From Levilinea saccharolytica (lineage in GTDB: Bacteria; Chloroflexota; Anaerolineae; Anaerolineales; Anaerolineaceae): 64,000 nucleotides of DNA. Position 1 is the stretch's first letter, and each line of letters begins with the position of its first letter. Positions 18,499 through 26,183 of the stretch are shown here, one piece after another. The notes beneath the pieces were generated by a model. That model ran no database searches and was not told where the DNA came from. It was given only the letters and a program-made list of their open reading frames with translations. The DNA is taken from assembly GCF_001306035.1 (NCBI RefSeq), contig NZ_LGCM01000065.1, positions 62,001 through 126,000 of the forward strand, read 5' to 3'. The position numbers and the translations under genes were made by a program.

Positions 18499-19785
18499 TT
18501 AGTCGCCAGCGGGAGCGCCCGCCTGCACCGGTTGGGCAGGGGCGGCGGCCGGCTGGGGTGATTTGAGCACGGCGGTGAGCACGGCGGCCAGCACCAGCAT
18601 GCCGGCGGCCAGGAAATAGGCGTTGGTGAAGCTGCCGGTGGCGTCTTTGATGGCGCCCGCCAACTGCGAAAGCATGAAACCGCCCAGACCCCAGGCCGTG
18701 TAGACGATGCCGTAGTTCATGGCGAAGTTTTTGAGGCCGTAGTAATCTTTGGTGATGGCGGGGAAGACCGCCAGGTTAGCGCCGTAATTGGCGCCGATGA
18801 GCGCCACCAGGGCCATGAGCAGGGGCACATTGGCCAGGGCGCTGCCCTGAACAATGAAGGACAGCCCGAAGATGAGCGCTGCCTGGAAGACGAAAGCGAT
18901 CAGCAGCACGTTCTTGCGGCCGATTTTATCCGAAAGCAGGCCGTAGAGCACGCGCCCGCCGCCGTTGCCCAGGGCCAGGGCCGAAACCGCCACGGCGGAG
19001 ACCGCCGCCAGGCCGATTTGATCTTTGACGATGGAGGCCAGGTTGCCGATGACCATCAGGCCAGCGCCGGAGCCAAAGGCAAAGGCCACCCAGATCAGGT
19101 AAAACTGCCAGGTTTTGATGGTTTCGCTGGGGGCAAATTCCTGTTTTTTGGCGGCCGTGCTTTTGGCTGGGGCCGAACCCGCCGGAACGTAGCCCGCCGG
19201 AGGGAATTGCAGCAGCTGGGCAAAGGCGATCACCACCACCAACATGCCGATGCCCAGGTAGAGCATGGTGGTTTGCAGGCCGATGGAAGCGATCAGCGTG
19301 CGGGCCAGGGGGGCCACCCAGGCGCTGCCCATGCCGAAACCGGCCACAACGATGCCGGAGATCAGGCCGGTTTTGGAGGCGGGGAACCATTTCAGCGCGG
19401 TGGGGCTGGCGGTGGCATACACAAAACCGATGCCGGAGCCGAGCAGCACGCCGAAGGCAAAGGTGTACATCCACGGGGAGGTGGATTGGCTGGAGAGGAT
19501 CACCCCCAAACCCGCCAAAAGGCCGCCCAGGCTGACGACCACCCGCGGGCCGAATTTGTTCAGCAGACGCGCCCCAACCAGGGTCATAATGGAAAAGACG
19601 ACGCACGCCACCGAGTAAGGCAGGGACTTCTGCGAATCGGCCCAGCCCCATTCCACGGGGATGTTGGCCTTGATGACGCTCCAGGCATACAAGACGCCCA
19701 ACGCCAGAAGGGCGCAGGTGCCGGCGATGGTGACCAGCCAGCCCTTGTTCGAGGCGGCGGCGCGGGTCGAAGAAGAATCGCTCAT
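18499..19785 (-). CDS. MFS transporter, oxalate/formate antiporter (OFA) family
   Basis: Twelve membrane segments. OFA-type landmarks include the N-terminal GVLYAWSVIKANI, MVIGNLASIVKDQIGLAA and the second-half block NYGANLAVFPAITKDYYGLKNFAMNYG. The family exchanges small carboxylates such as oxalate/formate, but many members carry other acids. The tail is rich in Pro and Ala. It is expressed from a near-consensus promoter bracketed by two operator copies (see 19873-19926), so it is likely induced by its substrate through a GntR/FCD-type repressor. Confidence 0.85.
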   Translation of the reverse strand: MSDSSSTRAAASNKGWLVTIAGTCALLALGVLYAWSVIKANIPVEWGWADSQKSLPYSVACVVFSIMTLVGARLLNKFGPRVVVSLGGLLAGLGVILSSQSTSPWMYTFAFGVLLGSGIGFVYATASPTALKWFPASKTGLISGIVVAGFGMGSAWVAPLARTLIASIGLQTTMLYLGIGMLVVVIAFAQLLQFPPAGYVPAGSAPAKSTAAKKQEFAPSETIKTWQFYLIWVAFAFGSGAGLMVIGNLASIVKDQIGLAAVSAVAVSALALGNGGGRVLYGLLSDKIGRKNVLLIAFVFQAALIFGLSFIVQGSALANVPLLMALVALIGANYGANLAVFPAITKDYYGLKNFAMNYGIVYTAWGLGGFMLSQLAGAIKDATGSFTNAYFLAAGMLVLAAVLTAVLKSPQPAAAPAQPVQAGAPAGD

Positions 19786-19872: not shown

Positions 19873-19926
19873 TTGTCTGACAAACTTGCGATGATTGCAT
19901 TATACAAATTGTCAGACAATTGTCAA
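19873..19926 (-). promoter_or_regulatory. repressor-controlled promoter of the OFA transporter (two GntR/FadR-type operators)
   Basis: On the minus strand TTGACA (19921-19926) and TATAAT (19899-19904) are separated by 16 bp. An 11-bp palindrome TTGTCAGACAA (19909-19919) fills the spacer, and a second TTGTCTGACAA (19873-19883) lies just past the expected start point. Both match the TNGTNNNACNA consensus of FCD-type GntR regulators. The leader to the ATG is about 107 nt. Confidence 0.75.
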
Positions 19927-23865: not shown

Positions 23866-23957
23866 CTTGCGGTTAAAATTGGATATAATAAGTGTATGCT
23901 GCGTTCTCAGGTTGGCAGATCACCCGCCGCCGCTACCTTAATCACCCAGGTGGAAAC

Positions 23958-26183
23958 ATGAAACATATTGGTCAATCCGTCCCTCGCGTAGATGCGCGCT
24001 CAAAAGTTAAAGGTGAGGCTGTTTTTGCTTCCGATATGACCCGCCCCAACCAGGCCTTTATGAAGGTGCTGCTGGCGCGGCGGCCGCACGCCATTGTCAA
24101 ACGGGTGGATACCGCCCGTGCTGAGGCCCTGGAGGGCGTTTTGGCTGTGCTGACCTCCAGGGATGTGCCCGCCAACGAATTTGGCTATTACACCTACGAT
24201 CAGCCGGTGTTGGTGGGACCGTGCGAAAAGCCCTATGCTGACCGCGTGCGCTATGTGGGCGACCGCGTAGCGGCGGTCATCGCCGAGACGGAAGCCGTGG
24301 CCCAGAAAGCCCTGGGGCTGATCGAGGTGGAATACGAGGACCTTCCGGCGGTATGCGATATGGAAGACGCCCTGCGGCCAGATGCGCCGGTGCTGCACCC
24401 GGATGTGGGCAGCAACCAGTTTGGCCATCATTTCCTCTATAACGGCGATATAGAAACTGGTTTCCAGCAGGCGGATGTGATTGTGGAGAGCGTGTACAAC
24501 ACCCCCGCCCAGGAACACGCCTATCTGCAAACCGAGGCCGGGCTGGCCTATATGGACGAGGACGGGCGCGTGGCCGTGGTGACCACCGGACAGTGGGGGG
24601 CCAAAGATCGCAAGCAGATTGCCCACGCATTGGGTTTGCCCGAAGAGCAGGTGCGCGTGATTTACCCCATGACCGGCGGGGCCTTTGGCGGGCGCGAGGA
24701 TATTTCCGTACAGATTGTGGTCTGCCTGGGCGCGCTGAAGCTGCACCGCATGGGCATCGACCGGCCGGTGAAGATCGTTTGGACGCGCGAAGAGTCCATT
24801 CTGGCGCACTGCAAACGCCACCCCTTCCGCGTGTACACGCGCTGGGGCGCCACCCGCGAGGGCAAAATTGTGGCCGCGGAAGTGCGCATGTACGCCGACG
24901 GCGGGGCTTATAAATTCACCACCAGCATCGTCACCAGCAACGCCGTGCTGAACTCCTTGGGCCCCTATGAAATTCCCAATGTAAAGGTGGACGCCTACGA
25001 TATTTACACCAACAACGTGCCGCGCGGGGCCTTCCGCGGCTTTGGCGGGCCGCAGGCGGTGTACATCGCCGAACAGCAGGTGAACAAACTGGCCCAGGCG
25101 CTGGGCATGGACCCGGTGGAACTGCGCATGCGCAACCTGGCGCGCGAAGGCTCGCTGCAAACCACGGGCGCGCCTTACCCGCCGGGGGTCAGCATCCGCG
25201 AGGTGACTGAGGCCTGCGCGGAAGGCTCCGGCTGGCAGAAGAGCACAGCGGGCTGGACGCGGCCAGAGGGTTTTGGCAGCGAAGACCCGCAGCACCCCAA
25301 TAAACGGCGCGGGGTGGGGATTGCCTGCGCGCATAAGAACGTGGGCTTCTCCTACGGCTACCCCGAATCCTGCACGGTGGGCATTGAGCTGTACGGCGGC
25401 TCCAAAATTGAACGGGCGCGTATCCGCCACGGGGCCAGCGAAGTGGGCATGGGCACGCTGACCGTCATCACCCAGATGGCGGCGGAGGCCCTGGGTCTGG
25501 AGCTGGATCAGGTGGAGCTGGTTTCCAGCGATACCGCCGAGACCAAGGACTCAGGTTCGGTGTCGGCCTCTCGCATGACCTTCTTCATCGGCAACGCCCT
25601 GAAAGAAGGGGCCGAGATTGCTCTGCAAAAATGGCAGGAGGAAGAGCGGCCGGTGCAGATTCTGCACACCTATTACCCGCCCAAAACCACCGCCCCCGAC
25701 CCGCAGACCGGCCAATGCGACCCCAACGTGGCCTACGCCTACACCACCCAGGCGGTGGAGGTGAGCGTGGACATGGAGAGCGGGCAGGTGGAGGTGGAAA
25801 AAATCATCTGCGCCATTGATGTGGGCAAGGCCATCAACCCCGGCCTGGTGGAAGGCCAGATTCAGGGCGGGCTGGTGCAGTCGGTGGGGTATGCGGTGAT
25901 GGAAAACTTTATCGAGAAGGACGGCCAGGTGCTGACCCCCTCGCTCTCCACCTATTTGATCCCCACCGCGTTGGATATCCCCAAAGAGATGAAGACCATC
26001 ATCCTGGAGATCCCCGACCCGCGAGGGCCGTGGGGGGCGCGCGGCCTGGGCGAGGTGATGAACATGTGCCTGGCGCCGGCCGTTACCCACGCGGTGTATG
26101 AAGCCACCGGCGTGTGGTTTGACGAATTTCCGCTGACCCCCGAACGGGTGCTGCGCGGTCTGGGTAAGCTGGAAGCAGTTTAA
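23958..26183 (+). CDS. xanthine dehydrogenase/CO-dehydrogenase family molybdenum-binding subunit, unaccompanied
   Basis: The N-terminal aldehyde-oxidase hammerhead domain (SVPRVDARSKVKGEAVFASDM) is followed by the molybdopterin cytosine dinucleotide domain: GGAFGGREDISVQ, RGAFRGFGGPQ and the final GARGLGEV carrying the catalytic Glu. Length 741 aa is typical of a large subunit (XdhA/HcrA/CoxL relatives; the CoxL loop with Cys is not seen). The usual partner genes for the [2Fe-2S] and FAD subunits are not adjacent, so it either uses partners from elsewhere or a different electron carrier. GTGGAAAC before the ATG at 23958 supports this start. It is followed after 2 nt by a flavoprotein gene. 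Confidence 0.85.
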   Translation: MKHIGQSVPRVDARSKVKGEAVFASDMTRPNQAFMKVLLARRPHAIVKRVDTARAEALEGVLAVLTSRDVPANEFGYYTYDQPVLVGPCEKPYADRVRYVGDRVAAVIAETEAVAQKALGLIEVEYEDLPAVCDMEDALRPDAPVLHPDVGSNQFGHHFLYNGDIETGFQQADVIVESVYNTPAQEHAYLQTEAGLAYMDEDGRVAVVTTGQWGAKDRKQIAHALGLPEEQVRVIYPMTGGAFGGREDISVQIVVCLGALKLHRMGIDRPVKIVWTREESILAHCKRHPFRVYTRWGATREGKIVAAEVRMYADGGAYKFTTSIVTSNAVLNSLGPYEIPNVKVDAYDIYTNNVPRGAFRGFGGPQAVYIAEQQVNKLAQALGMDPVELRMRNLAREGSLQTTGAPYPPGVSIREVTEACAEGSGWQKSTAGWTRPEGFGSEDPQHPNKRRGVGIACAHKNVGFSYGYPESCTVGIELYGGSKIERARIRHGASEVGMGTLTVITQMAAEALGLELDQVELVSSDTAETKDSGSVSASRMTFFIGNALKEGAEIALQKWQEEERPVQILHTYYPPKTTAPDPQTGQCDPNVAYAYTTQAVEVSVDMESGQVEVEKIICAIDVGKAINPGLVEGQIQGGLVQSVGYAVMENFIEKDGQVLTPSLSTYLIPTALDIPKEMKTIILEIPDPRGPWGARGLGEVMNMCLAPAVTHAVYEATGVWFDEFPLTPERVLRGLGKLEAV

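Follow-up and report, generated by a model that had tools for sequence, protein, structure and literature searches.

An MFS transporter gene in the window (the whole 64-kb stretch of DNA that was analysed) is preceded by two exact 11-bp palindromes set around a promoter match. The sites are kept before orthologous genes in relatives, and across these relatives the motif is linked to a gene for a protein with a GntR helix-turn-helix and a UTRA domain. We propose, with a probability of about 0.68, that the palindromes are operators of a purine-responsive GntR/UTRA repressor and that the transporter moves a monocarboxylate tied to purine fermentation. We infer that the UTRA protein binds DNA at these sites and represses rather than activates, and likewise an effector for it and a substrate and direction for the transporter, as set out below. 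The regulon looks like one of purine catabolism rather than of carboxylate transport as such. From a single promoter one thereby arrives at a candidate regulon in a little-studied anaerobic class, together with an operator, a candidate regulator and a physiological theme.

Two palindromes frame the promoter of an MFS transporter gene

The transporter gene (18499-19785, minus strand) is an ORF of 428 aa with a Pfam MFS_1 match and is divergent from a methyltransferase-like gene. Sequence inspection located the two palindromes before it, each of 11 bp and 36 bp apart, at 19873-19883 (TTGTCTGACAA) and 19909-19919 (TTGTCAGACAA), neither being assigned a strand. Read along the minus strand, the order is a -35 element TTGACA (19926-19921), a 16-bp spacer containing the palindrome that reads TTGTCTGACAA on this strand, a -10 element TATAAT (19904-19899), and then the palindrome that reads TTGTCAGACAA; with +1 assumed to lie near 19892, this downstream palindrome occupies about +10 to +20. 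The preliminary description had drawn the pair of palindromes, and a TTGACA-16-TATAAT promoter framed by them, in this same arrangement, and both were recovered, the promoter on the minus strand. A site in the promoter spacer and a site just past the start are positions from which a repressor blocks transcription, and, judged from its sequence, a repression layout at the MFS promoter is plausible. A simple hexamer search of ten upstream regions found a promoter with at least 10 of 12 bases matched in five and no clear one in four; upstream of the ammonia-lyase gene of one relative (G019), the site again lies inside the promoter spacer.

Close matches to the transporter occur in four of 61 related genomes. 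Three of these have upstream sequence, each with two exact sites in it, and the upstream region of the fourth (G010) is lost at a contig end. The palindrome at 19873-19883 is conserved in the same-genus genome G001, and a spacer site is also found before the MFS gene of G028, which belongs to another genus and encodes a transporter 76% identical to this one; there one site fills the spacer of a TTGACG-17-TATAAT promoter, with its partner 30 bp upstream rather than downstream. The members of paired sites are 26 and 36 bp apart in this genome, 30 bp apart in G028 and at other distances elsewhere, a variation that would argue against a rigid cooperative complex. An MFS gene beside a site in G019 was rejected as an orthologue, with only 28% identity over 307 residues. 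An exact palindrome also occurs inside the coding sequence of the G028 transporter (L154:1320-1346), where it encodes LSDK and then FGRK, and we treat coding matches of this kind as false operator hits.

The transporter scored above the cutoff of the 'L-lactate MFS transporter' model NF049980 (407.3 bits, cutoff 320), its best match being the L-lactate MFS transporter SfMCT, and below the cutoffs of both oxalate/formate models (TIGR00890, 231 vs 374.85 bits; TIGR04259, 197.8 vs 335 bits), so that its earlier designation as an oxalate/formate-family antiporter holds only in a broad sense. The genomes G000 (the present one), G001 and G028 also possess an ammonia-lyase with an exact site. Since the E. 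coli counterpart of this enzyme, YgeX, produces pyruvate, and since formate is a co-substrate of anaerobic uric-acid breakdown, both as reported in PMC12507026, a monocarboxylate is favoured as the substrate. The cargo is most likely a monocarboxylate coupled to purine fermentation, with lactate or pyruvate carried out or formate carried in or out. Because the repressor also appears to control purine-breakdown genes, the acid transporter probably serves purine breakdown.

Genes preceded by the seven exact sites of this genome

The assembly of this genome (4.23 Mb, 65 contigs) was scanned for the motif. With N at the centre, TTGTCNGACAA is not enriched, occurring in seven places against seven for the reversed control, and for this reason we draw nothing from the raw genome count. 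All seven copies have A or T at the centre, and TTGTCWGACAA occurs seven times against once for its reversed control.

Six of the seven exact sites precede MFS, deaminase, ammonia-lyase and fhs genes. Besides the pair before the MFS gene, two sites head a gene row made up of 8-oxoguanine deaminase (686.8 bits, cutoff 532), adenine deaminase (481.3 bits, cutoff 472.5), the GntR/UTRA regulator and an aspartate-carbamoyltransferase-like gene (246.8 bits, cutoff 236.95), the first of the two overlapping the end of folD. A single exact site lies 45 bp upstream of 2,3-diaminopropionate ammonia-lyase and another about 100 bp upstream of formate-tetrahydrofolate ligase (fhs). The seventh site falls within a recombinase-like ORF and is probably a chance match. 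As had been anticipated in the preliminary description, the motif led to a candidate regulon, by way of the sites before the deaminase row, the ammonia-lyase and fhs and the linkage to the regulator gene. G001 likewise has seven sites, before or in the same genes, and the pair before the deaminase is also present in L071; the sites of G001 are not strong evidence, as this genome is too close (same genus).

Allowing up to one mismatch gave 55 genome sites, 48 of them with exactly one. Among the matches listed (43 of these 48), 19 have an A/T centre; 17 of the 19 fall within ORFs of 150 aa or more (in three cases right at the beginning), and the other two are intergenic, upstream of proteins that we take, from their first residues, to resemble NusA and HisS. 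None of these one-mismatch sites was accepted as a target.

The motif is linked to a GntR/UTRA regulator gene

The candidate regulator is encoded on a contig other than that of the window (G000:C15, L006:11196-11942), in agreement with the earlier suggestion that the regulator acts from elsewhere. It consists of a GntR winged helix-turn-helix (PF00392, 56.4 bits, cutoff 27) and a UTRA (HutC-type) domain (PF07702, 80.9 bits, cutoff 23.8), with no FCD match in Pfam. It did not reach the cutoff of the HutC or PhnF equivalog model or of the other models scored; YvoA and DasR are among the solved chains closest to it in sequence. This genome yielded no second match to it at E <= 1e-20. The protein is 96% identical to that of G001 and, among the best 80 of 573 confirmed stretches, its best named match, from a Levilinea MAG (Chloroflexota, Anaerolineaceae), is also 96% identical. 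At E <= 1e-20 it has matches in 45 of the 61 related genomes, and by the orthologue cut in 42.

The association of motif and gene was followed in named Anaerolineae regulator loci, these being the best 80 of the 573 confirmed stretches. In 65 of these best 80 of 573 loci the 6 kb upstream of the regulator contain an exact site (in 69 if one mismatch is counted), and 10 of the 15 loci that have no exact site offer less than 3.6 kb of upstream sequence. The 1.31 Mb covered by the same best 80 of 573 contain 80 exact sites and 0 exact reversed controls, together with 45 sites having exactly one mismatch against 13 controls. Upstream of the regulator lies a deaminase gene in 70 and adenine deaminase in 67 of the 80 best loci out of 573; within the 250 bp before the deaminase gene, in the 67 of these best loci with sequence there, an exact site occurs in 60, nothing better than a one-mismatch site in 4 and neither in 3. 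The flank past the palindrome before the deaminase gene is biased in this set (best 80 of 573 loci), with T at +7 in 90% of 71 sites followed by weak G, A and C; it may represent a third half-site or an overlapping -35 element.

Whole genomes show the same association. The 42 genomes with the regulator hold 152 sites in 149.7 Mb (32 controls), and the 19 genomes without it hold 25 in 65.8 Mb (11 controls), a small excess that may come from another regulator or from coding matches. Site density is 1.02 per Mb with the regulator and 0.38 without (Mann-Whitney p 2.6e-4, a test that ignores relatedness), where the 42/19 split is our own and places G046, G048 and G054, which have matches of only ~30%, among the genomes without. 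We also compared individual target genes. Matches to fhs were present in 33 of 40 genomes searched, and 30 of 34 matches were examined as loci: sites with up to one mismatch occur at 10 of 21 loci with the regulator and at 0 of 9 without it (Fisher p 0.012, or 0.018 when one locus having only 67 bp upstream is left out), while exact sites alone gave no significant difference (5 of 21 vs 0 of 9, p 0.14). For the ammonia-lyase, the eight loci with the regulator comprise five with an exact site, one with a one-mismatch site and two with neither; the two loci without the regulator comprise no exact site and one one-mismatch match.

These data bear on the family of the regulator. The preliminary description had called the palindromes a GntR/FadR-type operator and had expected an FCD protein to read it. 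The double palindrome is of GntR type, and its half-sites, GT-CWG-AC, have the GT-N(2-3)-AC form of the FadR/FCD subfamily, with 3 nt between GT and AC in TTGTCWGACAA; most HutC-type sites, typical of UTRA members, have 4 nt there (PMC4494728). Literature matches to the motif letters include work on the alkB2 promoter of Pseudomonas, and the FCD/FadR-subfamily protein AlkR of Pseudomonas aeruginosa binds and protects the same core palindrome, ATTGTCAGACAAT, over a promoter (PMC12042122). Given the FadR-like spacing and this Pseudomonas protein, the FCD guess was a reasonable one. On such an account, a carboxylate-sensing GntR protein of the FCD (FadR) type would repress the transporter, and the UTRA gene would stand near some sites merely as a target; six FCD matches in the genome and the small site excess in genomes without the UTRA gene are in keeping with it. 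However, the FCD genes of this genome are remote from the sites, the nearest on a shared contig being about 118 kb away, and the motif and the UTRA gene share a gene row in most of the best 80 of 573 loci, as counted above. On these two grounds we regard an FCD regulator as unlikely: what stands of the FadR label is the spacing, and the regulator linked to it has UTRA and no FCD. AlkR itself differs in its FCD effector domain, its fatty-acyl-CoA effector and its targets, alkane genes (PMC12042122).

The UTRA protein would then be the one that binds TTGTCWGACAA. It resembles the HutC/UTRA subfamily (NagR/YvoA, DasR, PhnF, HutC) in its GntR helix-turn-helix and UTRA domain, both above Pfam cutoffs, and is unlike it in its linked operator, with 3 nt between GT and AC, and in its targets, purine genes. 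It would work like a GntR repressor and, by its domain content, belongs to the UTRA group, with an atypical operator. If so, operator spacing among GntR proteins does not follow the effector domain, and the system is well suited to the question of what determines the distance between half-sites in these regulators.

Site neighbours in relatives

We annotated 80 further stretches around chosen sites; these are a part of all sites, a few of them belong to the regulator's own gene row, and most of the neighbour clusters were annotated from a single member. Of the 84 exact sites in these stretches, 28 fall inside long ORFs (200 aa or more) and 56 do not (67%, compared with 19% of random positions); 48 of the 56 stand immediately before such an ORF as well (57% of the 84, compared with 9% of random positions). 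Recurrent neighbours in these and additional stretches include diaminopropionate ammonia-lyase, formate-tetrahydrofolate ligase and parts of a Bmp-type (nucleoside-type) ABC transporter. YgeY adjoins sites in four genomes (representative 508.6 bits, cutoff 321.5), as does a dihydroorotate-dehydrogenase-like protein with a ferredoxin domain, which is of the same Pfam family as the UacX described in PMC12507026. SHMT adjoins sites in two genomes. Others turn up in one or two genomes each: YgfK (865.5 bits, cutoff 835.3), flavoprotein subunits and, both scoring below cutoff, a xanthine-dehydrogenase-like large subunit and an adenine-deaminase-like protein. Further neighbours have no clear purine link, namely glutamate dehydrogenase, a methylmalonyl-CoA-decarboxylase-like carboxyltransferase, serC, cysteine-synthase-like and threonine-synthase-like proteins, SRP54 or DUF1015, UDP-glucose dehydrogenase, TerC and PLD. 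The threonine-synthase-like family (G025, G014, G008) proved distinct from diaminopropionate ammonia-lyase once the clusters were re-examined.

A model for control by purines

In the model that we favour, the absence of purines would leave one dimer in the promoter spacer and a second just past the start, and RNA polymerase would be blocked. Binding of a purine or a purine breakdown product by the UTRA domain would release the dimers, and the transporter would then be made along with the purine deaminases, formate-tetrahydrofolate ligase and 2,3-diaminopropionate ammonia-lyase. Going by the gene content, a purine base or an intermediate further along the route would be the most likely effector. 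On balance we lean towards a wider proposal as well, in which purine catabolism in Anaerolineae is governed by a UTRA GntR repressor that reads a FadR-type operator of odd length and ties deamination, one-carbon and diaminopropionate steps to a monocarboxylate transporter. Were this true, purine control in these Chloroflexota would rest with a regulator of another kind than YgeV, the sigma-54-type protein of the E. coli cluster, and one could predict when an uncharacterised monocarboxylate transporter is used.

It is conceivable, though we think it doubtful, that the UTRA protein is instead an activator or dual regulator, or senses nitrogen or one-carbon status, and that what the transporter carries is related to purines. 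Such a role would suit several of the site neighbours in relatives (glutamate dehydrogenase, SHMT, serC and the carboxyltransferase), and, as no NCS2 purine permease was found in this genome, another importer would be needed. Against this, a spacer site and a post-start site are blocking positions, the conserved row beside the regulator consists of purine deaminases, and the MFS protein matches a monocarboxylate model. Allowing one mismatch removes the significance of the window count taken by itself, since 25 of 100 shuffles then contain at least two. A chance match is nevertheless highly improbable as the origin of the palindromes, even with an N-centred motif no commoner in the genome than its reversed control and some exact copies inside coding sequence, because the window has two exact copies where 0.03 are expected on average and none of 100 shuffles yields as many, paired sites recur before the G028 transporter and the motif is linked to the regulator gene row.

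Relation to known systems

Among the closest known systems is the anaerobic reductive uric-acid pathway of E. coli, with which this genome shares a YgeX-type ammonia-lyase, preceded here by the motif, and SsnA; in single or few relatives, ygeY, ygfK and xanthine-dehydrogenase-like genes bear the motif. Unlike the E. coli cluster, which has an annotated sigma-54-type regulator, YgeV, and not a GntR gene, the genes here are scattered over contigs, and the SsnA cluster is without the motif. This compact cluster (L314:51-12773, G000:C23) comprises SsnA, two xanthine-dehydrogenase-type molybdenum hydroxylases, an F420-dependent-oxidoreductase-like protein, CofC, CofE and an F420 reductase (NpdG), and has no site with up to one mismatch; it resembles a Chloroflexota uric-acid variant described in PMC12507026. 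A site with up to one mismatch is likewise missing upstream of the xanthine-dehydrogenase-like gene of the window (23892-26183, plus strand). Judged from these two cases, the sites of this genome lie at the ends of the purine route but skip its middle. The window gene encodes a large subunit below all cutoffs, lies ~4 kb from the MFS gene and has a neighbourhood that is kept in G001.

Gut bacteria and gout have drawn current interest to the anaerobic breakdown of uric acid (PMC12507026). Among GntR proteins, NupR of Bacillus thuringiensis is likewise HutC-type and acts in nucleoside physiology; it differs in its 20-bp imperfect consensus, its zinc effector and its main target, a nucleoside permease (PMC9430930). 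The mycobacterial GntR protein MSMEG_5174 has been tied to purine metabolism. No GntR regulon of Anaerolinea and no purine regulator of Anaerolineae was found in the open-access literature, where absence is weak evidence.

Two further genes recur beside the motif. A cysteine-synthase-like protein of ~487 aa adjoins the operator in four genomes (L242, L241, L245, L249), with 81-86% identity. Directly behind the regulator, the aspartate-carbamoyltransferase-like gene (L006:12068-13018) is 72-99% identical in many loci; it could belong to pyrimidine synthesis or to a carbamoyl step of purine breakdown.
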